Assembly (NCBI RefSeq): GCF_014764365.1
Contig: NZ_CP061718.1
Span: 2,868,501 to 2,932,500, forward strand
Origin: Roseococcus microcysteis
Lineage (GTDB): Bacteria > Pseudomonadota > Alphaproteobacteria > Acetobacterales > Acetobacteraceae
DNA length: 64,000 nt
Reading direction: 5' to 3'
The notes below the pieces were generated by a model. It was not told where the DNA came from. It did no database searches and saw only the letters and a program-made list of their open reading frames with translations. Positions 12,419 through 44,327 of the stretch are shown piece after piece; position 1 is the first letter of the stretch, and each line of letters starts with the position of its first letter. The translations under genes were made by a program, and so were the position numbers.

Positions 12419-12457
12419 ACGATCCGCGACGGCGGATACGCCGGAGCGGTGAATCGT
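12419..12457 (+). repeat. three-stem palindromic repeat, copy 1
   Basis: Outer arms ACGAT/ATCGT (12419-12423 and 12453-12457), middle arms CCGC/GCGG, inner arms GGCG/CGCC, loop GATA, and a TGA bulge just before the closing ATC. It lies 12 bases after the dehydrogenase stop. Bases 12441-12455 recur exactly at 16916-16930. It belongs to the seven-copy family described in the findings. Confidence 0.75.
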
Positions 12458-12471
12458 CCTCCCGGCAAAGG

Positions 12472-12522
12472 CTGGACCATGAGCCCTCATGGGGGATCAT
12501 GGTCCAGGGGGCGCAAGCCCCC
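12472..12522. other. two adjacent hairpins downstream of the dehydrogenase gene
   Basis: The first hairpin has an 11-base perfect stem, CTGGACCATGA (12472-12482) with TCATGGTCCAG (12497-12507). The second follows at once: GGGGGC (12507-12512), a GNRA-type GCAA loop, and GCCCCC (12517-12522). There is no T-run, so a classic terminator is not supported. They could protect the upstream mRNA end or structure the region before the next promoter. Confidence 0.6.
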
Positions 12523-12545
12523 CCTCCCGCATCTGCGAACAACAC

Positions 12546-12601
12546 TTGAACAGGCGTTCAGACGTCGGTATCGTACTCTGACATTGCGAGTGATTCGCAA
12601 T
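12546..12601 (+). promoter_or_regulatory. putative promoter with palindromic, Fur-like operator
   Basis: A sigma-70-like pair TTGAAC (12546-12551) and TATCGT (12569-12574) is spaced by 17 bases. Just past the expected transcription start lies a perfect inverted repeat, ATTGCGA (12583-12589), five bases, then TCGCAAT (12595-12601). It sits directly before the ribosome site of the 81-residue protein gene. The spacing fits a repressor operator, and the sequence resembles alphaproteobacterial Fur-type boxes (inference from memory). Confidence 0.55.
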
Positions 12602-12612
12602 TGGAGGGTTTC

Positions 12613-12858
12613 ATGGGCCGCGACTACAGCCACATCGCCCGGCGCTGCGAACGGGCGGTCATCACCGCCTACCGTGAACTGCGCGATGTGGGGCAGAACG
12701 ACATGGCGGCCTTCCAGGCCTGCACCACGCTCTATCGCGTCCATCACCCCGAAGCCTCGGTGGCCGAGGCGCGACGGCTGGTGGCCGAATGGGTGGACCA
12801 TCACGTGACCCGAGCCTCCGAAGGCCCGACCCCGGGCTGCGAGTGCGCGGCCGAATAG
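12613..12858 (+). CDS. small protein of unknown function, 81 residues
   Basis: I do not recognise the family. The ATG at 12613 follows GGAGGG with four bases spacing, so the gene is well supported despite its size. The protein is soluble and largely helical, beginning MGRDYSHIARRCERAVITAY. It has a histidine pair in WVDHHV and two cysteines in the tail PGCECAAE, which could bind metal. It has its own promoter with a palindromic operator, making it a regulated single gene. It is followed convergently by the DUF411 gene, seven bases away. Confidence 0.7.
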   Translation: MGRDYSHIARRCERAVITAYRELRDVGQNDMAAFQACTTLYRVHHPEASVAEARRLVAEWVDHHVTRASEGPTPGCECAAE

Positions 12859-12865
12859 CCACGCC

Positions 12866-13327
12866 TCAGACCGGCAGCGCGCCCCGCATGCGCAGCCAGG
12901 GCGCGTGGCTGCCATCCCGCCGCCAGGCGACCACCTCATAGACCTCTGCCTCCCGCCCCGGCACTTCCATGCCAGGTGTGCCGATGGGCATGGCCGGCAC
13001 CGAAAGCCCCACGAAGCCCGCGGGGCGCTCCGCCAGGAAGCGGCGGATGGCGTGGGCGGGCACATGCCCCTCCAGCGCCACCCCCTGCACCCGCGCCGCA
13101 TGGCAGGAGAGCAGGTCGGACGGCGTGCCCAGCGCGCGGCGGAAGGGCCCCACGCTTGGCACCACGCGGTCCGTGACCGCGAAGCCCTCCTGCCGCAGAT
13201 GCGCGACCCAGCCCTCGCAGCAGCCGCAATAGGGGTCGCGCCAGACCTCCACGCGAAGCCCCTCCTGGCTGGCCGCGGGAAGGGCGGGCAGGGCGAGCGC
13301 GCCCAGCAGCAGGTGGCGGCGGATCAT
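12866..13327 (-). CDS. DUF411 family periplasmic metal-binding protein
   Basis: This small exported protein (153 residues) has a signal peptide, MIRRHLLLGALALPALPAAS, followed by the DUF411 motif DPYCGCCEGW with cysteines at 34, 36 and 37. DUF411 proteins are linked to copper handling in the envelope. The segment SDLLSCHAARVQGVALEGHV adds a further conserved Cys-His pair. The ATG at 13327 has GGAGGA about seven bases upstream; an ATG two codons earlier (13333) would abut that site. It follows the enoyl-CoA hydratase gene on the same strand by 13 bases. Confidence 0.88.
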   Translation of the reverse strand: MIRRHLLLGALALPALPAASQEGLRVEVWRDPYCGCCEGWVAHLRQEGFAVTDRVVPSVGPFRRALGTPSDLLSCHAARVQGVALEGHVPAHAIRRFLAERPAGFVGLSVPAMPIGTPGMEVPGREAEVYEVVAWRRDGSHAPWLRMRGALPV

Positions 13328-13340
13328 CGGCATTCCTCCC

Positions 13341-14117
13341 TCAGCGCCCCACCCAGCGGGGGGCGCGCTTTTCGATGAAGGCCCGCGGGCCTTCCTGGAA
13401 ATCCTCCGTCTCCCGGATCGCGCGGCTCGCTTCGCCGCACAGGGTCCAGAGGGCGTCATCCTCCAGGTCGTTCGCGCGGCGGGCGATGGCAAGGCTTTCC
13501 CGCACGGCGATGGGGGCGTTCACCGTGATGCGCGCGGCCAGCGCCAGGGCGGCCGCCATCACCTGCTCGGCCGGCACGGCGGCATTGACCAGGCCCAGCG
13601 CCGCGGCGCGGGTGCCGGTGATGGGCTCGCCGGTCGCGATCATCTCGAAGGCGATGGCGCGCGGCAGGGCGCGGGGCAGGCGGAAGACGCCGCCGGCGGC
13701 GGCCACCAAGCTGCGCTTCACCTCGGGCAGGCCAAAGGTGGCGCCCTCGGCCGCCACCGCCATGTCGCAGGCCAGCAGCAATTCCAGCCCGCCCGCCAGC
13801 GCATGGCCCTGTGCCGCCGCGACCCAGGGCTTTTTCCGGGGCGCGCGGACGAAGCCGGCGAAGCCGCCACGCTCGGTGTAGAGGTCGGCCCCGCGGCCGG
13901 CCGCCACCTCCTTCAGGTCGGCCCCGGCGCAAAAGGCGTGCGGGCCGGCGCCGGTCAGGATGGCGACGCGGATGTCGTCCTCCGCCTCCACCCGCGCCAC
14001 GGCGGCGTCGAGCGCCCCGGCCAGCGCACCATTCACGGCGTTGCGCGCCTCGGGCCGGTTCAGCGTGACCAGCGCCACATGCGGGGCCACGGTCTCGAAC
14101 AGGACGGCGTCGGGCAT
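13341..14117 (-). CDS. enoyl-CoA hydratase/isomerase family protein
   Basis: This is a crotonase-fold enzyme of 258 residues acting on acyl-CoA thioesters. VTLNRPEARNAVNGALAGAL starts the fold, and the oxyanion-hole regions are AFCAGADLKEVA and GHALAGGLELLLACD. The substrate is unknown. The start at 14117 gives MPDAVLFETV, the usual crotonase N-terminus; upstream codons to 14219 read through the repeat at 14178-14227 and are not credible. It is followed by the DUF411 gene in the same direction. Confidence 0.9.
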   Translation of the reverse strand: MPDAVLFETVAPHVALVTLNRPEARNAVNGALAGALDAAVARVEAEDDIRVAILTGAGPHAFCAGADLKEVAAGRGADLYTERGGFAGFVRAPRKKPWVAAAQGHALAGGLELLLACDMAVAAEGATFGLPEVKRSLVAAAGGVFRLPRALPRAIAFEMIATGEPITGTRAAALGLVNAAVPAEQVMAAALALAARITVNAPIAVRESLAIARRANDLEDDALWTLCGEASRAIRETEDFQEGPRAFIEKRAPRWVGR

Positions 14118-14177
14118 CTCGGGCGTTCCTCTTCCTGAAGCGCGCGGCGCGAACGCCGTCCGCTCCTGCCATTGTTG

Positions 14178-14227
14178 AGGGCGGGATTCAGCGCCTTCGG
14201 TGATTCCACCTCGACGCATCCCGCCCT
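14178..14227 (-). repeat. three-stem palindromic repeat, copy 2
   Basis: Read on the minus strand: outer arms of 10 bases (AGGGCGGGAT/ATCCCGCCCT), middle arms GCGTC/GGCGC with one G-T pair, inner arms GGTG/CACC, loop GAAT, and a TGA bulge before the closing ATC. Its sister copy at 31420-31469 differs at paired positions that keep the stems. Its end supplies part of the TAG stop of the N-formylglutamate amidohydrolase gene. Confidence 0.8.
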
Positions 14228-15077
14228 ACAGGAAGGACCAGTCCTCCTGGGCCAGGCCGGCCAGGATGGCGGCCAGGTTGGCGCGCAGCCGGTCGAAGCC
14301 GGCGTGGCGCTCGATCCGCGCCTCGTCCATGTAGAGGCTGCGGGCGATCTCGATCTGGATGGCGTGCACCCGCTCGCGCGGGCGGCCGTAATGGCGGGTG
14401 ATATAGCCGCCGGCATAGGGGTCGTTGCGGCGCACGCGGTAGCCCTGGCGCTGCAGCGCGGCCTCGATGAGGCGCGTCGCGCGAGGGGCGCAGGCGGTGC
14501 CATGGGCGTCGCCCAGGATGATGTCGGGCTGGTCGGCGCCCGGGGCGGGGTGGCTCGGCATGGAATGGCAATCCACCAGCAGGCAGGCGCCGAACTGCAC
14601 CCGCGTCTCGGCGATCAGGTCGCCCAGCGCCGTGTGGAAAGGTTCCCAGCAGTTGCGCACCCGGCTTTCCGCCTCGCGGAAGGAGAGGCGCCGGCGGTAG
14701 ATGGCCTCGCCCGAGGCCACCACGCGGGCGATGGTGCCGAGCCCCGCCCCCACGCGCGGGCTGCCGCTGTTCACCCAGGGCGGCAGGGGGGCATCGAACA
14801 TGCCCGGGTCCAGCTCCCAGGGCTCGCGGTTGGCGTCGCACCAGGCGCGGGGGAAGCGGGCGGCCAGCAGGGGGGCGCCGAGGCGCGGGGCGGCGGCGAA
14901 GAGGTCGTCCACGAAGGCGTCCTCGCTGCGGCGCAGGGATTGCGCGTCCAGCCGCGCGGCGTCCAGGAATTCCAGCGGATAGTCCCGCCCTGAATGCGGC
15001 GAGGTGAAGACCAGCGGGCAGAGGGCCGTGGCGGGTCGCGTCAGGTCATAGGCGGTGAGGGGGGCGTGCTGGTCCAT
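14226..15077 (-). CDS. N-formylglutamate amidohydrolase family protein
   Basis: This enzyme hydrolyses N-formyl-glutamate or related N-acyl amino acids and often ends a histidine-degradation route. The 283-residue protein shows the family blocks LVFTSPHSGRDYP near residue 25, VDCHSMPSHP and DAHGTACAPR, with conserved metal-type histidines. No other hut genes are nearby, so the substrate is uncertain. Its stop lies in a palindromic repeat, and it is divergent from the DUF169 gene across 158 bases that hold repeat copy 3. Confidence 0.9.
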   Translation of the reverse strand: MDQHAPLTAYDLTRPATALCPLVFTSPHSGRDYPLEFLDAARLDAQSLRRSEDAFVDDLFAAAPRLGAPLLAARFPRAWCDANREPWELDPGMFDAPLPPWVNSGSPRVGAGLGTIARVVASGEAIYRRRLSFREAESRVRNCWEPFHTALGDLIAETRVQFGACLLVDCHSMPSHPAPGADQPDIILGDAHGTACAPRATRLIEAALQRQGYRVRRNDPYAGGYITRHYGRPRERVHAIQIEIARSLYMDEARIERHAGFDRLRANLAAILAGLAQEDWSFL

Positions 15078-15176
15078 GGGTCCGCCCTACACCACCACGC
15101 GCGCGCGCCGCTGTCACCCGCCGGCTTCCGGGGGGCGGCGCATTCGTGCCACGCTGTTCGGCAAGGAGCTCGCCGT

Positions 15177-15212
15177 CCGATCGTCGCCGGCGTAGCCGGC
15201 GGCGTGAATCGG
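15177..15212 (+). repeat. three-stem palindromic repeat, copy 3
   Basis: Outer arms CCGAT/ATCGG, middle arms CGTC/GGCG with one G-T pair, inner arms GCCGGC/GCCGGC, loop GTA, and a TGA bulge before the closing ATC. It lies in the divergent region between the amidohydrolase and DUF169 genes, close to the DUF169 ribosome site, so it may fold in that 5' leader. Confidence 0.7.
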
Positions 15213-15235
15213 CCGGCCAAAAAGGAGGAAGCACC

Positions 15236-16042
15236 ATGCCCGATGGCATCACCGAGAAGCCCGCGCCGACGGGGCCGGAGCTGGTCCAGCTCGCCGCGCA
15301 ACTGTCCGAGCTGCTGAAGCTCCGCACCCTGCCCTTCGGCATGAAGCTGATGCGCGACGCGGCCGAGCTGGAGGCCGTGCAGGGGTTGCGCCGCCCGCCG
15401 GCCGGCAAGCGCTTCTCCACCTGCCAGCTGGTGACGCAGGCGCGCATCGCAGGCTTCACGCTCGGCATCACCCACGACAACGTGCCGGAATTCTCCAATT
15501 GCGGGGGCGTGATCGGGCTGAACCAGCCCTCGGAGCTGTATCTCTCCGGCCGCAAGATGGAGGGCGTCTGGTTCGAGAACCTGGAGGCCTCGGCCGCGCA
15601 CCAGGCGCAGATGCCGCGGGTGCCGCCCGAATACCACGCGCTGGTGGTCTCGCCCCTGCGCTCGGGCCGGCTGAACCCGCCGGATGTCTGCCTGTTCTAC
15701 GCCAACCCGGCGCAGATGATCCTGTTCATCAACGGGCTGCAATGGCGCAACTACCGCCGCTATGACTTCTCGATCACCGGCGAGAGCGCCTGCGCGGACA
15801 GCTGGGGCCGGGCGCTGCGCGACCGGACGGTGTGCCTCTCCATCCCCTGCTATGCCGAGCGCCGCTATGGTGGCGTGGCCGATGACGAGATGCTGATGGC
15901 CTGCCCGCCGGCCGATTTCGCGCGCGGGATCGAGGGGCTGATCGGCCTGTCCAAGGCCGGGCTGCGCTATCCCATCATGCCCTATGGCCCGCAATCGGAC
16001 CCCGCGGCCGGCATGGAGAAGAGCTACGCCGGGAAGTCGTAG
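15236..16042 (+). CDS. DUF169 domain-containing protein
   Basis: This soluble 268-residue protein matches the DUF169 family in its length and in blocks such as LLKLRTLPFGMKLMRDA, GKRFSTCQLVTQAR and DDEMLMACPPADF. The conserved cysteines in STCQLV, FSNCGG and MACPP are typical, and some relatives occur with redox enzymes. Function is unknown. The ATG at 15236 follows AAGGAGGAAGC, a strong site. The 3' end overlaps the convergent amidohydrolase gene by 19 bases. Confidence 0.88.
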   Translation: MPDGITEKPAPTGPELVQLAAQLSELLKLRTLPFGMKLMRDAAELEAVQGLRRPPAGKRFSTCQLVTQARIAGFTLGITHDNVPEFSNCGGVIGLNQPSELYLSGRKMEGVWFENLEASAAHQAQMPRVPPEYHALVVSPLRSGRLNPPDVCLFYANPAQMILFINGLQWRNYRRYDFSITGESACADSWGRALRDRTVCLSIPCYAERRYGGVADDEMLMACPPADFARGIEGLIGLSKAGLRYPIMPYGPQSDPAAGMEKSYAGKS

Positions 16043-16887
16043 AGCCTGGCCGGATTGTCCACGAGGACGCGCTGGCGCGTGGCCTCGTCGGGCAGCCATT
16101 CGTCCAGCCAGTCGAGCAGCAGCCCGTCGTCGAGCATCTGCTCCGGCGTGCTGAACTGCGTGTGCGGCCAGTCGGTGCCCCAGACGCAGCGTTCGGGCGC
16201 GGCGGCCAGGAAGCGGCGCGCCAGCGGCGCCAGGTCGTCATAGGGCGGGCGGCTGGCGCGATAGCCGCAGAGCTTCACCCAGGCGCGGCCAGTGTCGAGC
16301 AGCCGGCATGCCGCGTCCATGGCGGGGCTTTGGGCGCCATCGGCGGCGCGGGCGCCCGCCATGTGGTCCAGCACCACGGGCACGGGCAGCCCAGCGAGGC
16401 GTGGGGCCAATTCCACCAGCGCCTCGGCCTTCAGGAAAAGCTGGATGTGCCAGCCCAGGGGCGCGATGCGCCGTGCCAGGGCTTCCAGCTGCTCCAGCGG
16501 CGCGCCATTGCCGCTGACGGCGTTGAAGCGCACGCCCACCGCCCCGGCATCGGCCATGGCCTGCAAGGGCGCGTCATCTTCCACCACCACGATGGCGCGG
16601 CTGTCGGCCCGGCCGAGCTGCTGCACCGCGTCCAGCGTCACGGCATTGTCGGTGCCATAGACGCTGGCCTGCACGATGACGCGCCGCGTCAGGCCCAGGG
16701 TGTTCGCCATGTCGAGGTAGTGCGCCACCGAGGCGGGCGGCGGCGTGTAGGGCCGCGACGCACTCAGCGGAAAGCGGTCATAGGGGCCGAAGATGTGGAA
16801 GTGGCTGTCGCAGGCGCCCACGGGCGCGCGGCGGCGCGGCGGGTTGGTGCGAGCGTTCGCGGGGGCGCAGGTGAAGGACAGGTTCAT
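16024..16887 (-). CDS. amidohydrolase family protein, 2-pyrone-4,6-dicarboxylate lactonase-like
   Basis: This 287-residue TIM-barrel hydrolase has the N-terminal metal motif CDSHFHIFGPYDRFPLS and the C-terminal GTDWPHTQF block that marks this amidohydrolase group. Members hydrolyse lactones or decarboxylate aromatic acids such as 2-pyrone-4,6-dicarboxylate. VVLDHMAG carries the mid-barrel histidine. The exact substrate cannot be told, and no protocatechuate genes are adjacent. It overlaps DUF169 tail to tail and is divergent from the SDR gene. Confidence 0.85.
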   Translation of the reverse strand: MNLSFTCAPANARTNPPRRRAPVGACDSHFHIFGPYDRFPLSASRPYTPPPASVAHYLDMANTLGLTRRVIVQASVYGTDNAVTLDAVQQLGRADSRAIVVVEDDAPLQAMADAGAVGVRFNAVSGNGAPLEQLEALARRIAPLGWHIQLFLKAEALVELAPRLAGLPVPVVLDHMAGARAADGAQSPAMDAACRLLDTGRAWVKLCGYRASRPPYDDLAPLARRFLAAAPERCVWGTDWPHTQFSTPEQMLDDGLLLDWLDEWLPDEATRQRVLVDNPARLYDFPA

Positions 16888-16894
16888 GGAGCGT

Positions 16895-16932
16895 CGGATC
16901 CGCGGAGGTGAAACACCGGAGCGGTGAATCCG
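16895..16932 (+). repeat. three-stem palindromic repeat, copy 4
   Basis: Outer arms CGGAT/ATCCG, middle arms CCGC/GCGG, inner arms GGTG/CACC, loop AAA, and a TGA bulge before the closing ATC. It lies between the divergent amidohydrolase and SDR genes, eight bases from the amidohydrolase start codon, so it must be compatible with that gene's leader. Confidence 0.75.
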
Positions 16933-17014
16933 CCGCCCCGGTACGGCACCAGATTGCGGCCCGCGCGCCCCCGGCGCAATCTTGCGCCGCAACGAGCCAG
17001 GGGAGCGAGACGGC

Positions 17015-17764
17015 ATGAGCAAGGTGGCGGTGGTGACGGGGGCGAGCACGGGCATCGGGCGGGCCGCGGCGCTCGCTTTGTTAAAGGCGGGCTATCGCGT
17101 GGCGCTGGTGGCGCGCCGCCAGGCCGACCTGGAGGAGACCGCGCAGATGGCCGGCGCCAATAGCGGCAACGCAATGCCCGTGCCCACCAATGTGGGCGAC
17201 CCGGAGAGCGTGGCCGCGGTCTTCACCAAGGTGAAGTCCAACTGGGGCCGCTGTGACCTGCTGTTCAACAATGCCGGCATGGGCGTGCAGGGCTTCCTGC
17301 TGGAGGACCTGCCCGTGGAGAAGTGGCAGGAGGTGGTGAACGTCAACCTCAATGGCAGCTTCTACTGCGCGCAGCAGGCCTTCCGCATGATGAAGGAGCA
17401 GTCGCCGCAGGGCGGGCGCATCATCAACAACGGCTCGATCAGCGCGCATGCGCCGCGGCCCGACAGCATCGCCTACACCGCCACCAAGCACGCCATCACG
17501 GGGCTGACCAAGTCGCTGGCGCTGGATGGGCGGAAATACAACATCTGCGCGGGCCAGGTGGACATCGGCAACGCCGCCACGAACATGACCCAGCGCATGA
17601 CCAAGGGCGTGAAGCAGCCCAATGGCGAGATGATGGTGGAACCCACCATGGACGTGCAGAACGTGGCCAACGCCATCGTCTACATGGACAGCCTGACCCT
17701 CGATGCGAACGTGCTGTTCATGACCATCAAGGCGACGAAGATGCCGTTCGAAGGGCGGGGCTGA
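17015..17764 (+). CDS. short-chain dehydrogenase/reductase (SDR) family oxidoreductase
   Basis: This 249-residue classical SDR has the nucleotide motif [10 protein letters not shown] at the N-terminus, the NNAG motif, the catalytic serine region [10 protein letters not shown], and the Tyr-x3-Lys pair in [11 protein letters not shown]. It therefore should oxidise or reduce an alcohol or ketone with NAD(P)H. The ATG at 17015 follows GGGGAGCGA. Its TGA stop lies inside repeat copy 5, which also holds the stop of the convergent DehI-like gene. The substrate is unknown. Confidence 0.92.
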
Positions 17765-17799
17765 TTCACTTCATCGCCGCTTCCGGCAACGACGATCAG
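17761..17799 (-). repeat. three-stem palindromic repeat, copy 5, holding two stop codons
   Basis: Read on the minus strand: outer arms CTGAT/ATCAG, then an 11-base stem (CGTCGTTGCCG with CGGCGATGAAG, with G-T pairs and one mismatch), loop GAAG, and a TGA bulge before ATC. The plus-strand TGA at 17762-17764 ends the SDR gene and the minus-strand TGA at 17798-17796 ends the DehI-like gene. It may act as a two-way 3' end structure. Confidence 0.65.
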
Positions 17800-18605
17800 G
17801 CGCGGAAGGCCGCGCCCAGCACGCCGCCATTCACCACCATGCGCCCGATGGCGTCCTGGATGAAGACGTCCAGCGCCGCCTGCACAGGCGGCAGATCGGG
17901 CGGTGGCGGCAGGCGCGGCAGCAGGGTCGCCATGCGCGCCGCTTCCTCCCGCGCCAGGTCGCGTGTTGCGGCGATGGCGGCCTGCAATTCGCCCCGCGCG
18001 TGCAGCGGCGCCAGCACGCCATGCGCCAGAGACAGCGCGCCCGGCCAATGCGCCATGTGGCGATACATGCTGGCCAGGATGGGCTGTCCCGCCGTGCTGC
18101 CCATGGCGTTCAGCGCCAGCACCATCTCCGCAGCGTGTGACGGCATTTCGTCCAGCGCCAGCAGTGCGGGCAGCGGAATGGGCGCTTCCTCGGGGAAGAG
18201 CGGCGCACGCGGCGCGCCGCCGGCCACGAAGCCCGGTGCCGTGCTTTCGCGCAGCAGGGTGAGGGCCGCCAGCGCCATGGGGTTGCTGCGGTCATAGGCC
18301 GCGATCACGTCGCGCACCGGCGCGGGGTCGAGGCCGATGCAGGCCCAGGCGGCCTCCGGCACGCGCGGCGCCTCCGGCAGCGGGCGGTCGGCGCGCAACA
18401 CGGCCGCCGCTGCCGCCACATGCCCGCCGACATAGAGCGGCTTCAGGCTGCCCCAGGCCCAGGGCAGCGCGCCCTCGAACACCGCCAGGTGCCGCCAGAT
18501 CAGGTTCACCACGCCGATGCGATAGGTGGCGCGGATATCGGCGAAGATCTCAGCGATCTCGCCGGTCGCCTCCGCCTCGCGGATGGCGGGGACGGGGTCG
18601 CTCAT
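17796..18605 (-). CDS. DehI-like (halocarboxylic acid dehalogenase family) helical protein
   Basis: The 269-residue all-helical protein matches the DehI/AhpD-like fold through VNLIWRHLAVFEGALPWAWG near residue 34, YDRSNPMALAALTLL in the middle, and the second internal repeat with MYRHMAHWPGALSLAHGVLA. DehI removes halogen from 2-haloacids, but from a by-eye alignment the residues facing DehI's active site appear replaced (Met and His), so dehalogenation is not supported. It ends an operon of acyl-CoA enzymes and is coupled by an ATGA overlap (18602-18605) to the enoyl-CoA hydratase. An accessory role there is inference. Confidence 0.7.
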   Translation of the reverse strand: MSDPVPAIREAEATGEIAEIFADIRATYRIGVVNLIWRHLAVFEGALPWAWGSLKPLYVGGHVAAAAAVLRADRPLPEAPRVPEAAWACIGLDPAPVRDVIAAYDRSNPMALAALTLLRESTAPGFVAGGAPRAPLFPEEAPIPLPALLALDEMPSHAAEMVLALNAMGSTAGQPILASMYRHMAHWPGALSLAHGVLAPLHARGELQAAIAATRDLAREEAARMATLLPRLPPPPDLPPVQAALDVFIQDAIGRMVVNGGVLGAAFRA

Positions 18606-19405
18606 CGCCCCGTGAACACGCCCTGGCGCTTTTCCAGCATGGCGTTCACCGCCTCCTTGTGGTCCGCCGTCTCATGCGCGATGGCCTGGAAGGCCGCCGA
18701 CATTTCCAGCAGCGAAGCGAGCGACATGTGCTGCCCCTCGCGCAGCAGCCGCTTGGTCATGCGCAGCACCTGCGGCGGGTTCTTCGCCACGCGCGCGGCG
18801 AGTTCACGCGCGGCACTCATCAGCTCGCCATGCGGCACCACGCGCGAAACGAGGCGTGCGGCCAGCGCCTGCCCGGCATCCAGCGGGTCGCCGGTGAAGG
18901 ACATTTCCGCCGCCATCGCCATGCCCACCGCGCGCGGCAGCAGCCAGGCGCCGCCATCGCCGGGCACGATGCCCACGCGCACGAAGCTTTCGGCGAAGAT
19001 GGCCTTCTCGCTGGCCACGCGCATGTCGCACATGCAGGCGAGGTCGAGCCCCGCGCCGATGGCGGCCCCGTTCACGGCGGCGATGGTGGGCAAGTCGAGC
19101 TCCCACAGCGCCAAGGGGATGCGCTGAATGCCGCGCCGGTAGTTCTCGCGCATCACGGCCGGGCTGTCGGCGGCCATGATGCCCTTGCGGTCGCGCATGC
19201 CCTTCAGGTCGCCGCCCGAACAGAAGGCGGGGTCGGCGCCGGTCAGGATCACGCAGCGCAGGCTGTCGTCGCGCGCGATGCGGCGGCAGGCGTCCTCCAC
19301 TTCCGCGCAATCCTCGAAGGAGGAGATGGCGTTGCGCCGGTCCGGCGCGTTCAGCGTCAGCGTGACGACAGGGCCGTCCTGCTCGATCTTGAGGAAGTTC
19401 GTCAT
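18602..19405 (-). CDS. enoyl-CoA hydratase/isomerase family protein (acyl-CoA operon)
   Basis: This 267-residue crotonase-fold enzyme is in line with two acyl-CoA dehydrogenases. It has VTLTLNAPDRRNAISSFEDC, the oxyanion-hole block AFCSGGDLKGM, and AAVNGAAIGAGLDLACMCDM. It should hydrate or isomerise the enoyl-CoA made by the dehydrogenase pair. It starts 13 bases after the small dehydrogenase subunit gene ends and overlaps the DehI-like gene. The specific acyl-CoA is unknown. Confidence 0.92.
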   Translation of the reverse strand: MTNFLKIEQDGPVVTLTLNAPDRRNAISSFEDCAEVEDACRRIARDDSLRCVILTGADPAFCSGGDLKGMRDRKGIMAADSPAVMRENYRRGIQRIPLALWELDLPTIAAVNGAAIGAGLDLACMCDMRVASEKAIFAESFVRVGIVPGDGGAWLLPRAVGMAMAAEMSFTGDPLDAGQALAARLVSRVVPHGELMSAARELAARVAKNPPQVLRMTKRLLREGQHMSLASLLEMSAAFQAIAHETADHKEAVNAMLEKRQGVFTGR

Positions 19406-19418
19406 GGGTGGTGTTCCT

Positions 19419-20402
19419 TCAGGCGTCGCGCGCCGTCAAATCCGGCCAGAGGTTCGCGCCGCCGCGGGCGAGGGCGAGCTTGCCGATTTCGGCGGCCCAG
19501 GCGCGGTCGGTGCCGCCCTCCTCGCGCCAGGCCCAGAGGCGGCGGGTGAAATGGTGCAGCTCATGGTCCTCGGTGATGCCGATGGCGGCGAAGACCTGGT
19601 GCGCGGTGGCGGCGCCGAAGGTCGCGGCCTCGCCCGCCACGACCTTGGCGCAGCCGATCTCGAAGGCGGCTTCCGCCAGCCCCCGCGCATCCACCGCGCG
19701 CGCGGCATTGCTGACGGCGACCTGTACGGCCGCGACCTCGCCCGCCATGGCGGCCAATTGCTGCTGCACCGCCTGGAACTTGCCGATGGGCCGGCCGAAC
19801 TGCTTGCGCGTGTTCGCCCAATCCACGGCCAGCGCCAGGATGCGCTCCATGGCCCCCGCGATCTGCGCGGCGCGGATCAGCGCGAGGCCCAGGCGCAGCG
19901 CGCGCGGACCATGGCTGTTGGGCAGGATGCCAGCGGCGCTGCGCGGCGCGAGCGTCAGGTCGTCGCGCGGCTCGCGCCCGATATTGGCGCCGGGGGTGGC
20001 GCCCTCCACCGCGTGCAGCGTCAGCCGCGCGCCGTCCAGCTTTACGGCATTCGTGGCATGGCGGCCGAAGGGCGCGCCCTTCTCGCCCAGCGCCAACACG
20101 CCATCCGGCACCTCGACGCCCGCCGCCGAGAGCAGGGCCGCGCCCAGCATCGTCTCGGCCATGGGAACGGGCGCACCATGCTGGCCCAGCACCTGCCAGA
20201 GGGCGGCCGCGTCGCCCCAGGAGAGGCCGACGCCGCCCGCCTCCTCCGGCACCAGGGCCAGGGCGAGGCCCTGTTCGCTCAAGCCGTCCCAGAGGGCTTG
20301 CGGAAAGCCGCCCGCCTCCACCTCGCGCAGCGGCGCGACGCCGCCCGCGTCCGCCACCAGCCGTTCCACTTGTTCGACGAGGATGCCGCGAAGTTCGTTC
20401 AT
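19419..20402 (-). CDS. acyl-CoA dehydrogenase family protein, smaller paired subunit
   Basis: This 327-residue FAD-type acyl-CoA dehydrogenase-like protein keeps the C-terminal helical domain (WANTRKQFGRPIGKFQAVQQ, the usual RxQFGxPI block) but has a shortened middle. It begins one base after the stop of the larger dehydrogenase gene. Such tight long/short pairs often form alpha-beta heteromers in which the flavin site is shared. Heteromer formation is inference from the pair layout. It is the second gene of the operon. Confidence 0.88.
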   Translation of the reverse strand: MNELRGILVEQVERLVADAGGVAPLREVEAGGFPQALWDGLSEQGLALALVPEEAGGVGLSWGDAAALWQVLGQHGAPVPMAETMLGAALLSAAGVEVPDGVLALGEKGAPFGRHATNAVKLDGARLTLHAVEGATPGANIGREPRDDLTLAPRSAAGILPNSHGPRALRLGLALIRAAQIAGAMERILALAVDWANTRKQFGRPIGKFQAVQQQLAAMAGEVAAVQVAVSNAARAVDARGLAEAAFEIGCAKVVAGEAATFGAATAHQVFAAIGITEDHELHHFTRRLWAWREEGGTDRAWAAEIGKLALARGGANLWPDLTARDA

Positions 20403-20403
20403 G

Positions 20404-31050: not shown

Positions 31051-31054
31051 ACCC

Positions 31055-31411: not shown

Positions 31412-31419
31412 GGCGGCCT

Positions 31420-31469
31420 AGAGCGGGATGCGTTGAGGTGGAATCACCGAGAACGCTGAATCCCGCTCT
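31420..31469 (+). repeat. three-stem palindromic repeat, copy 6
   Basis: Outer arms of 10 bases (AGAGCGGGAT/ATCCCGCTCT), middle arms GCGTT/AACGC, inner arms GGTG/CACC, loop GAAT, and a TGA bulge before the closing ATC. It is the close sister of copy 2 at 14178-14227. Changes in the outer and middle arms are compensated, which supports a selected RNA or DNA fold. It lies between convergent Hpt and pyrG genes. Confidence 0.82.
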
Positions 31470-31479
31470 CAACAAAGGT

Positions 31480-31508
31480 TAGAGCAGGCTGCGTGAACGC
31501 AGCATGCT

Positions 31509-31511
<3 letters not shown>
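31480..31511. terminator. long hairpin at the pyrG 3' end
   Basis: TAGAGCA plus GCTGCGT (31480-31486 and 31488-31494) pairs with ACGCAGC plus TGCTCTA (31497-31503 and 31505-31511): a 15-base stem with one mismatch and a GA loop. It sits between convergent Hpt and pyrG and contains the pyrG stop codon. It lacks a T-run, so I infer a 3' end role and do not prove a terminator. Confidence 0.5.
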
Positions 31512-33534
<2,023 letters not shown>

Positions 33535-36931: not shown

Positions 36932-38521
<1,590 letters not shown>

Positions 38522-38525
38522 CGCC

Positions 38526-38918
38526 ATGCCGGATGGCAGCGGGTTCGGACGCGGGCCGCAGGCCCGCAACGTGCTGGGCGGGGCGCTGGTCCCGTGCGGC
38601 ATGGACCCGCTGACCGGATGGTATCGCGATGGCTGCTGCAAGACGGATGAGCACGACCACGGCAGCCACACCGTCTGCGCCGTGATGACGGCGGAGTTCC
38701 TGGAATTCTCCCGCGGCGTGGGCAATGACCTGTCCACCCCGCGGCCGGAATATCACTTCCCGGGCCTGAAGCCCGGAGACCAATGGTGCCTCTGCGCCAT
38801 GCGCTGGGAACAGGCACGGCAGGCGGGCGTCGCGCCGCGCGTCGTGCTCGCCGCGACCAATATCGCGGCGCTGCGCTATTGTGCGCTGGAAGACCTCCAG
38901 GCGCACGCCTCGGCCTGA
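38526..38918 (+). CDS. DUF2237 family protein
   Basis: This 130-residue protein matches the DUF2237 family in length and in PRPEYHFPGLKPGDQWCLC, GWYRDGCCKTDEHDHGSH and ARNVLGGALVPCGMDPLTG. Conserved cysteines and histidines (CC, DEHDHGSH, WCLC) suggest metal binding, but no function is established. It starts four bases after pckA, so it is probably cotranscribed. Its stop is three bases from the convergent MFS gene. Confidence 0.88.
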   Translation: MPDGSGFGRGPQARNVLGGALVPCGMDPLTGWYRDGCCKTDEHDHGSHTVCAVMTAEFLEFSRGVGNDLSTPRPEYHFPGLKPGDQWCLCAMRWEQARQAGVAPRVVLAATNIAALRYCALEDLQAHASA

Positions 38919-38921
38919 AGC

Positions 38922-40115
38922 CTACTCGGCCGCGGCCAATACCCGTCGCGACCGCTTCTGCTCCTGCCACAGCGCCATCGCCACCGCGATGCCCATGAAC
39001 CCGGCCGCCGCGACGAAGATCGCCTGGGGCTGGCCGTTGTCCAACAGGAAGCCGAACATCAGCGGCCCCGCGATGCCACCGATGTTGAAGCCGGTGGTGA
39101 CGATGCCGAACACCGCCCCCGCCTGCCCTGGAGGTGCCGCCGCGCGCACCAGCATGTCGCGCGAGGGCATGATGAGGCCCGTCAAGAAGCCCGAGGCCGC
39201 CATGACCAGCGTCAGCGGCACCACGCCCATGGGCACCAGCCCCGCCACCAGGATCAGCAGCGCCGCCCCGCCGAAGCCCGCCGCCGCCACCAGCCCGTGG
39301 CGGCGCGTGCGGTCGGCGATGAAGCCGCCGGCCAGCACGCCCACCGCGCTCAGCGCCAGCCAGGCCGTGAGCGCGATGTTGGCCGAGGCCAGCGACAACC
39401 CGCTGAAGGCCCCCCAGGCCGAGACCGCGAAGCTCTGCACGCCGCCCGCGGAGAGGCTGATCAGCACGAAGAACACCGTCAGCGTCAGCACCGCCGCGCT
39501 GAACACGCTGGGCGCGCCGGGCGCCGCCTTGGGCCGTGGGGGCGCCGGGCGTTCGGACAGGGCCGGGCGGATCAGCGGCAGGGCCAGCAGCGGCCCCAGC
39601 AGCCCCGCCGCCACCAGCGCCCCGCCCAGCCCGAACACCCAGGCCGTGCCCAGCATGAAGGCCGGCGCCACCGCGCCACCCAGGTAGCCCGCGAAGGTGT
39701 GGATGGAGAAGGCGCGGCCCACATGGTCCTCGGCCACGTCGCGGCCCAGGATGGCGTAGTCGGCCGGGTGATAGACGCTGTTGGCCAGCCCCAGCAGCGC
39801 CGAGGCCGCCAGCAGCCAGGAATATTCCTGGAAGATGCCCGCGAGTGCCAGCGCCAGGCCCCCCAGCATCATCCCCGTCACCAGCACGCGGTGCGGCCCC
39901 CAGCGGTCCACCAGGAAGCCCATGGGCGCCTGGGTGAAGAAGGAGACCACGTTGAACACGGTCAAGGCGAGGCCGAGTTCGAGGAAGCTCACCCCCATCG
40001 CGTCGCGCAGCAGCGGGAAGAGCGGCGGCAGGGCCAGGATGTGCAGGTGGCTGACGAAATGCGCGCCGGAAATGGCGAAAAGCGTGCGCCGCTCGGCGGT
40101 GGAAAAGCCCGACAT
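38922..40115 (-). CDS. MFS transporter, fosmidomycin-resistance-like
   Basis: This 397-residue integral membrane protein has about twelve helices. It starts MSGFSTAERRTLFAISGAHF and carries the MFS loop motif GFLVDRWGPHRVLVTG between helices 2 and 3 (residues 60-75). The N-terminal SGAHFVSHLHILALPPLFPL resembles Fsr-type efflux carriers. The substrate is unknown. It begins one base after the polA stop, so it is coupled or cotranscribed with polA. Confidence 0.85.
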   Translation of the reverse strand: MSGFSTAERRTLFAISGAHFVSHLHILALPPLFPLLRDAMGVSFLELGLALTVFNVVSFFTQAPMGFLVDRWGPHRVLVTGMMLGGLALALAGIFQEYSWLLAASALLGLANSVYHPADYAILGRDVAEDHVGRAFSIHTFAGYLGGAVAPAFMLGTAWVFGLGGALVAAGLLGPLLALPLIRPALSERPAPPRPKAAPGAPSVFSAAVLTLTVFFVLISLSAGGVQSFAVSAWGAFSGLSLASANIALTAWLALSAVGVLAGGFIADRTRRHGLVAAAGFGGAALLILVAGLVPMGVVPLTLVMAASGFLTGLIMPSRDMLVRAAAPPGQAGAVFGIVTTGFNIGGIAGPLMFGFLLDNGQPQAIFVAAAGFMGIAVAMALWQEQKRSRRVLAAAE

Positions 40116-40116
40116 C

Positions 40117-42918
40117 TCAGTGCGCCTCCGCCCAGGACCGGCCATGGCCCACCTCGACCAGCAGCGGCACGCGAAGTTGCGCCACACTCTCCATCACGGA
40201 CTTCAGGGTGGCGGCGGTGGCCTCCACCTCGGCCTCCGGCACCTCCAGCACCAGTTCGTCATGGACCTGCAGCAGCATGCGGGCGGAGAGGCCCGCCTCG
40301 CGCAGCGCCTGGGGCACGCGCACCATGGCCCGCTTGATGACCTCGGCCGCGCCCCCCTGGAAGGGGGCGTTGATGGCCTGGCGCTCGGCCCCGCCGCGGC
40401 GCACCGGGTCCTTGGACTTGATGTCCGCGATCCAGAGGCGGCGCCCGAAGGGGCTCAGCACATGGCCATGGATGCGCGCCTCGTCCTTCAGGCGCTCCAT
40501 CTCGGCGCGGATGCCGGGGTATTGCGCGAAATAGGCGTCGATGATGCCGCGCGCCTCGCCCGGGCCGATGCCCAGCCGGGCGGCGAGGCCGAAGGCGGAC
40601 ATGCCGTAGATGATGCCGAAATTGATGGTCTTGGCGCGGCGCCGCGCCTCCTTGTCCACCTGCCCCGGCGCGAGGTGGAAGATTTCCGCCGCCGTGCGGC
40701 TGTGGATGTCCTCGCCATTGGCGAAGGCCTCGCGCAGCGTCGGCACGTCGGCCAGATGCGCCAGCAGGCGCAGCTCGATCTGGCTGTAGTCGGCGCTCAA
40801 CAGCACATGGCCGGGCTCGGCCACGAAGGCGCGGCGGATGCGCACGCCCTCCTCGGTTCGGATCGGGATGTTCTGCAAATTGGGCTCGGTGGAGGAAAGC
40901 CGGCCCGTGCTGGTCATCGCCATCGAGAAGCAGGTGTGGACCCGGCCATCCGGCGCCAGCGCCGCGGCCAGCCCCTCCACATAGGTGGATTTCAGCTTGG
41001 CGAGCTGCCGCCAGTCCAGCACCACGCGGGCGAGTTCCACCCCCTGCGCCGCCATCTCCTCCAGCACGGAGGCATCGGTGGAATAGGCGCCGGTCTTGCC
41101 CTTCTTGCCGCCCTTCAGGCCCATTTCCTGAAACAGGATTTCGCCCAACTGCTTGGGCGAGCCCACGTTGAAGGGGCGGCCCACAAGGCGGTGGCACTCG
41201 GCCTCGAGCACCACCAGCCGTTCGGCGAAATCCTGGCCGATGCGGGAAAGCTCCGCGCCATCCACCTTGATGCCGGCCGTCTCCATGGCGGCCAGCACCG
41301 GGATCATCCGGCGTTCCACCTGCTCGTAGAGGGCCAGCGCCTTCTCGGCGCGCAGGCGTGGGCGCAGCGCGTGCCACAGCCGCAGCGTGACGTCGGCATC
41401 CTCGGCGGCATAGGCGGTGGCGCGGTCCAGCGGCACCTGCGCGAAGCTGATGCGCGCGCGGCCCGTGCCCGTGACCTCGTCGAAGGAGATGGGCTTGTGG
41501 CCGAGATGGAGCTGCGACAGCTCATCCATCCCATGCCCGTGCAGCCCCGCCTCCAGCGCGTAGGAGATCATCATGGTGTCGTCGACGGGCGCCACCAGCA
41601 GCCCGCCATTGGCCGGGTTGGCCAGCACCTCGATGTCGTATTTCGCGTTGTGCAGCACCTTGAGCACGCCCGGGTCGGCCAGGAGCGGCCGCAGCGCCTC
41701 AACGGCCTCGGCCTGCGGCAGTTGCGCGGGCGTCTCCGTCAGCATGTCGGGCGCTTCATGGGCCAGCGGGATATAGGCCGCGCGCCCGGGGGCCACGGCC
41801 ATGCAGATGCCCACCAGCCTGGCCGCCAGCGCATCGAGGCTGGTCGTCTCCGTGTCCAGCGCCACCACGCCGGCCGTGCGGGCTTCCGCCACCCAGAGGT
41901 CGAGCGTCGCGCGGTCGGTGATGGTGGTGTAGGGGCCGAAGGGCTTGGCCTCGGCCGGCGCCTCGGTGGTTTCCGCCATGGGACGCGGACGATGCGGCGC
42001 CCCGCCATCCCCTTCGCCCAGCCGCGCCAGGAGCGAGCGGAAATTGTTCTCGCGCAGAAAGGCCAGCAGCCGCGCGGGCTCGGGCGCGCGGGCGCGCATG
42101 TCCTCGACCGGGCAGGGCAGGGGGGCATTGGCGTCGAGCTGCACCAGGCGGCGGGAGATGCGCGCCGCCTCGGCATGGGTTTGCAGCACCTCGCGCCGCT
42201 TGGGCTGCTTGATCTCGCCCGCGCGGGCCAGCAGCGTTTCCAAATCACCATATTCGGTGATGAGCTGCGCGGCGGTCTTGATGCCGATGCCCGGCACGCC
42301 CGGCACATTGTCGGTGGCGTCGCCGGCCAGCGCCTGGACCTCGACCACCTTCTCCGGCGCCACGCCGAATTTCTCCAGCACCTCGGGCGCGCGGATGGGC
42401 TTCTGCTTGATGGGGTCCAGCATGATCACGCGGTCGCGGATCAGCTGCATCAGATCCTTGTCGGAGGAGACGATGGTGACGCGCCCGCCCTCGGCCTCGA
42501 ATTCGCGCGCATAGCTCGCGATCAGGTCATCCGCCTCGAAGCCCGGCAGTTCCACGCGGCAGACGCCGAAGGCATCGGTGGCGTCACGAATCAGGGCGAA
42601 TTGCGGGATCAGCTCTTCCGGCGGCTCCGGCCGGTGCGCCTTGTAGGCGGGGTAGATCGCGTTGCGGAAGGTCTCGCGCGCGCTGTCGAACACCACGGCG
42701 ATGTGGCTCGCCACATGCTGGCTGAGGAATTTCTCCAGCATCTGCGCGAAGCCGAACACCGCGTTCACCGGCGTGCCATCCGGGCGCGTCATGGGTGGCA
42801 GGGCGTGGTAGGCGCGGAAGATGTAGCCGCTGCCATCCACCAGGATCAGGTGGCGGTCCTCGGCGGGCAGGACGGGGCGCGACGCCTCCGCCACGCCCTC
42901 AATGGGCGTGGTCGTCAC
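40117..42918 (-). CDS. polA: DNA polymerase I
   Basis: This replication and repair enzyme fills gaps and removes RNA primers. The 933-residue protein has the 5' nuclease domain (HLILVDGSGYIFRAYHALPP to about residue 290), a 3'-5' exonuclease domain with DTETTSLD near residue 352, so proofreading is probably retained, and the polymerase domain with SADYSQIELRLLAHL, RRRAKTINFGIIYGMSAFGL and QVHDELVLEVPE. Its start overlaps the CHCC zinc-finger gene by 20 bases. Confidence 0.97.
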   Translation of the reverse strand: MTTTPIEGVAEASRPVLPAEDRHLILVDGSGYIFRAYHALPPMTRPDGTPVNAVFGFAQMLEKFLSQHVASHIAVVFDSARETFRNAIYPAYKAHRPEPPEELIPQFALIRDATDAFGVCRVELPGFEADDLIASYAREFEAEGGRVTIVSSDKDLMQLIRDRVIMLDPIKQKPIRAPEVLEKFGVAPEKVVEVQALAGDATDNVPGVPGIGIKTAAQLITEYGDLETLLARAGEIKQPKRREVLQTHAEAARISRRLVQLDANAPLPCPVEDMRARAPEPARLLAFLRENNFRSLLARLGEGDGGAPHRPRPMAETTEAPAEAKPFGPYTTITDRATLDLWVAEARTAGVVALDTETTSLDALAARLVGICMAVAPGRAAYIPLAHEAPDMLTETPAQLPQAEAVEALRPLLADPGVLKVLHNAKYDIEVLANPANGGLLVAPVDDTMMISYALEAGLHGHGMDELSQLHLGHKPISFDEVTGTGRARISFAQVPLDRATAYAAEDADVTLRLWHALRPRLRAEKALALYEQVERRMIPVLAAMETAGIKVDGAELSRIGQDFAERLVVLEAECHRLVGRPFNVGSPKQLGEILFQEMGLKGGKKGKTGAYSTDASVLEEMAAQGVELARVVLDWRQLAKLKSTYVEGLAAALAPDGRVHTCFSMAMTSTGRLSSTEPNLQNIPIRTEEGVRIRRAFVAEPGHVLLSADYSQIELRLLAHLADVPTLREAFANGEDIHSRTAAEIFHLAPGQVDKEARRRAKTINFGIIYGMSAFGLAARLGIGPGEARGIIDAYFAQYPGIRAEMERLKDEARIHGHVLSPFGRRLWIADIKSKDPVRRGGAERQAINAPFQGGAAEVIKRAMVRVPQALREAGLSARMLLQVHDELVLEVPEAEVEATAATLKSVMESVAQLRVPLLVEVGHGRSWAEAH

Positions 42919-43123
42919 CCGCCCCGTCCTTCAGGCGGTAGGTGCGGGAGCAATAGGGGCAGGTCACCTGCTCGTGCTCGATGCGCATGAAGATGGAGGG
43001 GTGGCCCAGCGTGCCGCCGCCGCCATCGCAGCGCACCTGGCGGGTTTCCACCAGGATGACCTCCTGCGGGGTGACGCCCTCGGTCAGGACGGGGGTATAG
43101 CCGGTGATCTGCGGGTCGCGCAT
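42899..43123 (-). CDS. zinc-finger CHCC domain protein (NDUFS6-like)
   Basis: This 74-residue protein has the zf-CHCC zinc site: Cys32 and His41 in CDGGGGTLGHPSIFMRI, and Cys55 and Cys58 in TCPYCSRTYRL. The motif is the one found in complex I accessory subunit NDUFS6, and alphaproteobacteria carry a free-standing form. The ATG at 43123 gives MRDPQITGYTPV; further upstream codons read into the divergent lipoprotein promoter. It overlaps polA by 20 bases in another frame, so the two are likely cotranscribed. Confidence 0.88.
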   Translation of the reverse strand: MRDPQITGYTPVLTEGVTPQEVILVETRQVRCDGGGGTLGHPSIFMRIEHEQVTCPYCSRTYRLKDGAGDDHAH

Positions 43124-43211
43124 CGAAGTCGGGTCCTGGCGTTTGCTTCCCCCGAACATACCCAAGCGGCGGAGGATGGACCAGACGGAACCTCCCCCAT
43201 ATGCCAGGGGC

Positions 43212-44264
43212 ATGGGTCGTCTCCTCCTCCTGTTGCTGCTGGCGCTGGGCGCCTGCGTGCCGTCCGAACGCCTGCCGCCGGTGGTCGCCGGGCCGGCCAT
43301 CGCGCCCTTTGAGGCCGGGCCGCTGCCCTGGGCGCCGCACCCGGCCTATCTGCTGGACGTCTCGCCGCCCCGGCCCCAGCCCGCCGGCCCGCGCCCGGAG
43401 GCGGACCTCGTCATGGAGGACGGCGCCCGCCTGCCCCTGCGCGCCTGGCGCCCCGACGGCCCGCCGCGCGTCGTGCTGCTGGCCCTGCACGGGCTGGGCG
43501 ACCATGGCGGCAACTTCCTGCTGGAAAGCGGCCCGCAGCTCGCGGCCGGTGGGGCGCTGGTCTACGCCTATGACCAGCGCGGCTTCGGCTGGACCGCCAC
43601 GCGGGGCCTCTGGGCGGGGCGGGATCGCATGGTGGCCGATGCCCGCGCGGCCGTCGCCCTGCTGCGCCAACGCCACCCGGGCCTGCCCTTCTTCCTGCTG
43701 GGCGAAAGCCTGGGCGGGGCCGTCGCGCTGCTGGCGCAGCCCGAGGGAATTTCGGGCCTCATCCTCTCCTCGCCCGCCATCTGGGGCGGTGATTACTTCC
43801 CCTGGTTCCTGCGCCCGCCGCTGGCGGTGGGGGCGGCGGTGCTGGGGCCGCTCGCCTCGCCCGCCGTGGCGGGGGGGATCGCCGCCAGCGACAATGCGGC
43901 CGCGCTGCGCCGCTTCGCGAACGACCCGCTGACGCTGAGCCACATCCGGCTGGACATGCTGGAGGGGCTGGTCGCCCTGATGGACGACGCCGTCGCCGCC
44001 CTGCCCGGCTGCTGCCGCGCCACGCCCACCCTGTTCCTGATGGGCGGCAAGGACCGCGTGATCCCGACCGCCTCCGCCCGCCGCGCCCTGCGCGACGCCG
44101 CCGTGCCCCGCGTGGTCTTTTACCCGGAAGGCTGGCACCTGCTGCTGCGCGACGCGGTGCGCGAAGAGGTGGTGCGCGACCTCCTCGCCTTCATGGCCGC
44201 CCCCGCCACGCCGCTGCCGGCCGAGGCGGCGGGCAGGGTGTGGCTGGAGGGTGCGCCGCGCTGA
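43212..44264 (+). CDS. alpha/beta hydrolase lipoprotein, lysophospholipase-like
   Basis: This 350-residue secreted lipoprotein has a short hydrophobic signal and the lipobox LGAC (acylated Cys15). The hydrolase domain shows GLGDHGGNFLL (oxyanion region), the nucleophile elbow GESLGG (Ser166), an acid residue in GGKDRVIP, and the catalytic histidine in EGWHLLLRD. It fits the monoglyceride lipase/lysophospholipase group (Hydrolase_4). The ATG at 43212 is chosen because it opens the signal peptide. It is convergent with the Bug receptor gene. Confidence 0.88.
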   Translation: MGRLLLLLLLALGACVPSERLPPVVAGPAIAPFEAGPLPWAPHPAYLLDVSPPRPQPAGPRPEADLVMEDGARLPLRAWRPDGPPRVVLLALHGLGDHGGNFLLESGPQLAAGGALVYAYDQRGFGWTATRGLWAGRDRMVADARAAVALLRQRHPGLPFFLLGESLGGAVALLAQPEGISGLILSSPAIWGGDYFPWFLRPPLAVGAAVLGPLASPAVAGGIAASDNAAALRRFANDPLTLSHIRLDMLEGLVALMDDAVAALPGCCRATPTLFLMGGKDRVIPTASARRALRDAAVPRVVFYPEGWHLLLRDAVREEVVRDLLAFMAAPATPLPAEAAGRVWLEGAPR

Positions 44265-44282
44265 GCCGCGGTCTCAATTGCC

Positions 44283-44327
44283 GCGTGATTCACGCCTTCG
44301 GGCGTTCCGCCCTTCAGCGATCACGCG
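44283..44327 (-). repeat. three-stem palindromic repeat, copy 7
   Basis: Read on the minus strand: outer arms CGCGTGAT/ATCACGCG, middle arms CGC/GCG, inner arms GGGCG/CGCCC, loop GAA, and a TGA bulge before ATC. It lies between convergent hydrolase and Bug genes and directly abuts the Bug stop codon. On the plus strand its core forms ACGCC-TTCG-GGCGT. Confidence 0.78.

Follow-up and report, generated by a model that had tools for sequence, protein, structure and literature searches.

Bulged palindromes of Roseococcus microcysteis and related Acetobacteraceae are probably copies of a mobile two-hairpin element, many of them fused to stop codons

The 64,000-nucleotide stretch of Roseococcus microcysteis DNA analyzed here (contig NZ_CP061718.1, positions 2,868,501 to 2,932,500; hereafter the window) carries seven short palindromes in which an arm ending in GAT pairs with its reverse complement and an unpaired TGA stands just before the closing ATC. 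The original prediction, made from the letters alone, had described seven intergenic palindromes of this shape with one covarying fold. An exact scan of the window (an arm of at least five bases ending in GAT, 15 to 50 bases, then TGA followed by the arm's reverse complement) returned the same seven elements and no eighth, and six of the coordinates proposed for them were right; the last element, at 44282-44327, is 1 base longer than proposed. The copies, named below by their first position, lie on both strands (Table 1). Those at 14178, 17761 and 44282 carry the TGA bulge on the minus strand, and the 17761 element folds weakly (-8.4 kcal/mol) if read on the plus strand. When the window was combined with 20 evenly spaced 20-kb stretches (464 kb), the scan gave 20 matches, compared with a mean of 5.65 (standard deviation 2.5, maximum 13) in 20 first-order Markov simulations. 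However, in the real sequence certain GC-rich bulges outscore TGA (GCC 52, CGC 46, GGC 32), probably because of codon structure, and the scan alone is therefore suggestive to moderate evidence. In what follows, G000 is the genome of R. microcysteis itself (4.2 Mb), and G003 and G010 are relatives in the same genus.

Table 1. Hairpins of the palindrome family in the window and occupancy of their sites in two relatives
Feature	Position	Strand	Remarks
Hairpin 1 (GAT...TGAATC core) of complete two-hairpin copy	12419..12457	+	Arms extend outward as GGAGC/CCTCC; site also occupied in G010 and G003
Hairpin 2 of the 12419 copy	12472..12507	+	Preceded by linker with CGGCAAAGG
Hairpin 1, 50-nt subtype (AGGGCGGGAT)	14178..14227	-	Site occupied in G010 and G003
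Hairpin 1, short copy between divergent genes	15177..15212	+	Absent from G010 and G003
Hairpin 1, short copy between divergent genes	16895..16932	+	Occupied in G010 and G003
Hairpin 1, short copy over called stop codons of two convergent genes	17761..17799	-	In G010, absent from G003
Hairpin 1, 50-nt subtype, left end TAGAGC (T at 31419)	31420..31469	+	Occupied in G010 and G003
Linker CAACAAAGGT	31470..31479	+	
Hairpin 2, TAGAGC...GCTCTAG	31480..31512	+	Right end of complete copy 31419-31512
Hairpin 1 with 8-bp outer arm	44282..44327	-	Abuts called gene end 44328; in G003, not in G010

A covariance model seeded with 12 short copies, four of them from the window, matched G000 at 143 places with E ≤ 3.1e-5 and at 148 with E ≤ 1 (150 candidates were scored), so the genome does hold many further copies. 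The predicted covariation also withstood statistical testing: in the 12 seed copies it exceeded that of all 500 shuffles and of every slid control. We then counted pairs in 145 hits (111 distinct) from G000 and G010, after dropping 21 antisense duplicates, three hits with E > 0.2 and copies containing N. Among the 111 distinct copies, pair 1-39 is CG in 83, GC in 26 and AT in 2; pair 2-38 is TA in 58, CG in 35, GC in 13, TG in 3, AT in 1 and unpaired in 1; pair 7-30 is CG in 52, GC in 50, AT in 4 and unpaired in 5; and pair 8-29 is GC in 68, CG in 27, TG in 9, TA in 3, GT in 1 and unpaired in 3. Three pairs next to the bulge are nearly invariant (3-37, GC in 110; 4-36, AT in 105; 5-35, TA in 109), and the bulge columns are T in 107, G in 103 and A in 110. 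Thus, the arms keep pairing largely regardless of their letters, and GAT and TGAATC are kept by letter. The idea of a single family with a single fold holds, with the qualification that the bulge, described as fixed, is nearly rather than wholly so, the whole TGA being present in 100 of the 111 copies. The model tolerates changes in the core: a four-unit array with GAC...TGAGTC scores 39 bits. At L007:15797-15982 (G000:C1, about 1.216 Mb), a four-unit array of period 50 with GAC...TGAGTC has C-G for T-A as its last outer pair, with pairing and GANTC kept. In the 17761 copy and its G010 orthologue, several arm bases have changed and most are still paired (judged by eye).

A complete copy comprises two hairpins, of which the palindrome is the first. 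The full layout is apparent from the flanks of copies in other genera: TAGAGC or TAGCGY comes first, then hairpin 1, then a linker (for example CTCAAACAAAGCC), and finally hairpin 2 ending in GCTCTA or GCTGTA. We aligned 26 complete copies, 93 to 106 bp long, in which the two hairpins are joined by an A-rich linker. Their two arms have 30 predicted pairs, for 22 of which at least one sequence has both partners replaced, and arm covariation is present in both hairpins. The complete copies start with TA in 21 cases, end with TA or TAG in 17 and do both in 15, some of these ends having been set by us; 11 start with TAGAGC and 8 end with GCTCTA(G). Across copies, the left flank consensus is TAGCGY/TAGAGC or GCGY. 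Most Roseococcus copies have hairpin 1 only, either single or in head-to-tail arrays whose cores are spaced by 14-20 bp in the short subtype and by 51-61 bp in arrays that include the 50-nt subtype. By a permissive test that also counts neighboring units and chance palindromes, a hairpin lies downstream of 50 of the 145 Roseococcus hits and of 42 of the 80 from other genera. Two copies in the window, those at 12419 and 31420, are complete; the one at 14178 is followed by CAACAATGG and a weaker second hairpin that reaches 14137, downstream on the minus strand. The 76-bp surroundings of the 14178 copy recur elsewhere at 84-87%, and the 50-mer at 31420 has an identical counterpart at L013:19728-19777.

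The family is centered on Acetobacteraceae, as originally proposed. In a search of 60 genomes (a match being E ≤ 0.01, and copy counts that reach 111 being read as at least 111), the palindrome was matched in 30: all 21 genomes of the genus, including G000, 8 of 15 from sister genera and 1 of 24 from other families. Copy numbers are at least 111 in each of G003, G010 and G035, 80 in G020 and 9 in G016. A pattern search of genome contigs yielded at least 80 loci, and the titles among the matches listed were Acetobacteraceae genera or uncultured Acetobacteraceae/Rhodospirillales. The complete-element model, run on 289 genomes of the class with at most 14 candidates scored per genome, had matches in nine, namely G000 and eight genomes outside the family. 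As judged by eye, 10 of 14 readable loci from these eight genomes, belonging to four of them, keep the TGAATC bulge among very different arms and the remaining 4 do not, a count to be read in light of the model having been trained on TGAATC-bearing copies; locus L286, unreadable at the expected place, is outside the 14. A search of plasmids with the complete element of another genus gave no match.

Comparison of close relatives reveals high turnover. The aligned blocks of G000 and G010 (344 kb in blocks longer than 1.5 kb) share 93.0% identity. Of 33 sites in G000, 32 could be anchored in G010, where 23 are occupied and 9 empty; conversely, 39 of 44 sites in G010 were anchored in G000, with 23 occupied and 16 empty. 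Because occupancy differs at 9/32 and 16/39 anchored sites, the element behaves as mobile. Unit number is unequal at 8 of the 23 shared sites, and G010 has gained the three-unit array B76960, since G000 and G003 share one empty sequence there. By eye, the left junctions of empty/full pairs are sharp and the right ones include some non-aligning bases. Some of the "empty" sites (A80482, B166130 and B323024) contain remnants or other rearrangements. The original prediction had offered either a selected fold or a mobile palindrome that keeps refolding; the turnover accords with mobility, and covariation alone is no proof of selection on an RNA fold. Several individual sites are of separate interest. 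Internally shortened 22-nt copies are found at L209:1844-1865 in G000 and L232:6804-6825 in G010, where the corresponding G003 palindrome is longer, perfect and devoid of the TGA bulge. At L217:1324-1363 (G000 site A245324), one hairpin follows a gene start region and is absent from the G010 interval, where short tandem repeats (about 22-27 bp) are present further along.

Arms that stay complementary while their letters change could also arise if template switching corrected one arm of a quasipalindrome from the other, with no selection on the fold. At the orthologous hairpin 2 (12472-12507 in G000), the inner arm is wholly different in G010 and still pairs, which is what such correction would produce, as is covariation in the arms of both hairpins. 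However, correction should fill the bulge, yet the TGA of nearly all copies stays unpaired, as it does in four other-family genomes, and new sites are left unexplained. As a full account we consider template switching highly improbable, although it may act alongside mobility.

The gene context, obtained with a simple codon-model gene caller, is far from random. Among 95 sites, of which 89 could be classified (three duplicate sites included), 49 lie between convergent genes, 34 between codirectional and 6 between divergent ones, and 4 of the 95 were called within genes. Convergent gaps make up only 67 of the 444 gaps of at least 50 bp in the same comparison (Fisher P = 1.7e-14). In convergent gaps, 39 of 49 copies are on the strand of the nearer gene (P = 4e-5), in part because of stop fusion (see below). 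On the one hand, this preference for gene ends, the strong covariation and a core that often begins 3 nt past a stop are what one would expect of a structured RNA element selected in place at mRNA 3' ends, where it would serve as an exonuclease barrier or a terminator/termination element with the TGA bulge as a protein or RNase site. On the other hand, turnover is high between close species, codirectional copies have no clear strand bias (22/34, P = 0.12), divergent and intragenic sites exist, and Rfam has no credible match within 12300-18000. An RNA element selected in place is thus unlikely as the primary explanation, and effects of the copies on mRNA ends are possible. The GC skew of the sampled stretches, consulted for a replication-strand bias of the copies, is irregular.

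At many sites the element is fused exactly onto a stop codon and supplies its TAG. Among 142 elements at 92 sites (those in L016 and L017, which duplicate L212 and L221, were removed), 44 sites have TAG six bases ahead of the core, and at 36 of the 44 the sense gene stops on this TAG. A stop-to-core distance of 3 occurs at 37 sites, and the runner-up, -4, at 7. Among background TAGs of the same stretches, counted as called stops or noncoding, 157 of 802 are stops (including the 36), compared with 36 of 44 (P ~ 1e-18). Other genera behave in the same way: when 57 of the 80 loci were scanned (23 with Roseococcus titles were omitted, and 8 of 71 sites lay too near a contig end to score), 43 of the 63 sites that could be scored had TAG at that place, and in 17 of the 43 it scored as a coding stop; a stop-to-core distance of 3 was seen 17 times, with the next commonest seen 3 times. 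Eight in-frame stop-fused sites of G000 or G010 are empty in the other of these two species; the TAG sites A282214 and A294198, where TAG is out of frame, were excluded from this set. The stops of the empty alleles are TAG in five, TAA in one and TGA in two, and seven of the eight proteins terminate at an unchanged codon, the eighth being one codon off. TA-bearing stops thus account for 6 of 8 empty alleles, compared with about 20% of background stops (P = 0.0013). The counts establish the stop fusion itself; as its candidate cause, the empty alleles favor insertion at TA with the TAG restored.

The best explanation, to which we assign a probability of roughly 60%, is that each palindrome is a copy of a non-autonomous mobile element, similar to miniature inverted-repeat transposable elements (MITEs) and to the CIR elements discussed below, that is built of two hairpins and an A-rich linker and often ends in TAGAGC...GCTCTA. 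Many Roseococcus copies are hairpin 1 alone, multiplying also as head-to-tail arrays. A candidate enzyme acting in trans would recognize hairpin 1 through the bulge and the three flanking pairs, and the arms would be free to drift provided that pairing persists. Insertion would prefer TA; where this TA lies within a TAG or TAA stop, the initial G of the element would yield a new TAG, the protein end would be preserved and the insertion would survive.

Several observations weigh against this explanation. No consistent target duplication was seen by eye at the empty/full pairs, where the right junctions are untidy, and the G010 gain B164161 has an 18-19 bp flank duplication around the element, at a place where G000 and G003 carry a short CTGATTCACC. 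Two of the eight empty alleles have a TGA stop. At the 55 sites away from stop distance 3, the left end is T in only 33% and A in only 29%, so insertion at TA is not general. The stretches also contain 1,390 noncoding TAs, which are hardly used, and 222 TA-bearing stops; because the former outnumber the latter, a TA preference combined with tolerance at stops is insufficient alone to account for 36/44. The seed copies were picked with GAT and TGAATC present and are biased toward such copies. Finally, recognition by an enzyme is a proposal, and no transposase with ends that match the element was found among the families and loci inspected.

The invariant bulge invites another reading, because TGAATC contains GANTC, the methylation site of CcrM, and a methylation site held in an inverted repeat could tie the copies to cell-cycle control. 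The bulge GANTC is present in 100 of 111 distinct copies, one array that changes the pair at N retains GANTC, and the motif is scarce in this genome, with 278 occurrences found in 400 kb and 1,087 expected (control CTNAG, 267). The R. microcysteis genome encodes GcrA, as do all 36 of the family genomes searched (36/36), and a CcrM-like protein with PF01555 and PF18755 that scores 611 bits with NF050803, below the curated cut-off of 830. The bulge GAATC could therefore be methylated. However, N is A in 109 of 111 copies, though CcrM accepts any base; T32, which lies outside GANTC, is T in 107, whereas G33, inside it, is the most variable letter (103). An apical GANTC is present in 23 of 26 complete elements but in just 22 of 98 distinct Roseococcus copies. 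This pattern of conservation indicates that GANTC alone is not what fixes the bulge, which weakens a CcrM site as its sole cause; as an explanation of the family we regard it as quite improbable.

Short, high-copy palindromes that lie mostly between genes also recall repetitive extragenic palindromic (REP) elements, which are mobilized by REP-associated tyrosine transposases (RAYTs), and the original prediction suggested looking for a linked RAYT/TnpA transposase. Such a link is not supported in this genome. A search with the Pfam model of the Y1 transposase (PF01797) found no match in the R. microcysteis genome, in 19 of the 20 other genomes of the genus or in G035; G016, the sole genus genome matched, has three, despite just 9 palindrome copies, and 5 of 14 control genomes were positive. 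The palindromes also have neither the GTAG nor the CGTC head of the REP superfamilies set out in PMC3733652, and we give mobilization by a RAYT almost no credence. The CGTC-tagged REPs of alpha-Proteobacteria in that paper, which reports them as missing in Acetobacteraceae, are likewise short, high-copy palindromes; they differ in their stems of 8-9 bp, their CGTC head and a frequent CCA tail. Br-REP1 and Br-REP2 of Bradyrhizobium are intergenic palindromes in 3' regions, Br-REP1 at about 200 sites, with other consensus sequences, and the consensus displayed in PMC5082802 has no GAT/TGAATC bulge.

Insertion sequences (IS) of two other types were considered as partners and rejected. IS630-type PF13358 had one match in the R. 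microcysteis genome and none in the high-copy genomes G003 and G010. For the IS5-type models PF13586, PF13340 and PF01609, the best-scoring loci were inspected and none had GAGCnTGAT ends, the partner search covering the Y1, IS630-type and these IS5-type models; PF13340 had no match in G020, with its 80 copies. Genes of both types are present in some high-copy genomes and missing from others. IS5-type sequences are a possible source of such ends: some PF13586 loci (L304 and L313) do have inverted ends starting with TAG[AG]G, and the ends may also resemble those of the IS1031 group. In the R. microcysteis genome itself, one IS5-type insertion sequence is present four times, the copies being nearly identical and bearing the inverted ends AGCCCATCCGG (L331, L338, L344 and L349, at G000:C1 near 0.482, 0.664, 2.039 and 2.289 Mb).

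CIR elements, reportedly described by Chen and Shapiro in 2003, offer the closest anatomical parallel. The review PMC2229807 describes the CIR elements of Caulobacter and Brucella as intergenic, about 110 bp long, with two stem-loop arms, a linker, TA termini and GANTC at the terminal loop of one arm, and leaves their mobility unexplained. The complete elements studied here are of similar length and plan, the single-hairpin copies being shorter, and the second hairpin is detectable downstream of a minority of Roseococcus hits. Terminal-loop GANTC is likewise common to the complete copies and infrequent in the distinct Roseococcus copies. For TA termini the comparison points both ways: many complete copies begin or end with TA, some of these ends having been set by us, and the 55 Roseococcus sites away from stop distance 3 mostly have no TA. 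CIR elements are described as absent from genes, and in the present family 4 of 95 sites were placed inside genes by a simple caller. The TGA bulge with GAT/ATC, the single-hairpin copies, the arrays, the stop fusion and the short inverted ends distinguish the present family and are absent from the sections of PMC2229807 consulted. Thus, the family resembles CIR elements in its anatomy; having been set beside them by description only, it is not filed as CIR. With MITEs it shares dispersed copies and orthologous sites that may be occupied or empty. As to terminal inverted repeats and target duplication, TAGAGC starts and GCTCTA(G) ends are confined to part of the complete copies, and no consistent duplication was seen at empty/full pairs. 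A difference from MITEs is that no autonomous partner with the same ends was found among the IS5-type loci inspected.

A broader proposal is that the palindrome is mobile throughout the class, is read by an enzyme through the bulged GAT/TGAATC hairpin and has an end that rebuilds the stop codon at the TA of TAG or TAA; such an element would land in the least harmful TAs of GC-rich genomes and hence behave as a stop-codon specialist. We put this forward tentatively, as a possibility that may well prove wrong. If the stop-codon reading is true, it shows how a mobile element in a densely packed, GC-rich genome can spare the host, and how new 3' ends reach many genes. According to PMC2229807, the way in which the two-armed CIR repeats of Alphaproteobacteria move is unknown. 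In the present family, the bulge and its three flanking pairs, constant while the arms vary freely, make a clear candidate for a recognition motif; close species are available that differ in gained and empty sites; and the position taken at stop codons is exact. We met no published description of the palindrome family or of the stop-codon fusion in a literature search that was thin in subscription journals and so gives weak support to novelty.

Comparison with Rfam, which the original prediction had proposed as a check, matched no family to the elements at the gathering score, either in the window or in four further loci. The nearest approach is a weak match of hairpin 2 of a complete element (L084:3885-3930) to RF02600, BASRCI27 (Brucella small RNA CI27), at 31.6 bits and E = 0.0018, far under the gathering score of 59.8; this family had no match in the part of the window searched. 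Two other RNA matches lie at loci of the data set: a suhB/mmgR small RNA (RF00519) above the gathering score near a complete element (L067:7411-7485), and a cspA thermoregulator-like match (RF01766; L084:750-1109) at 64.7 bits, relative to a cut-off of 78.

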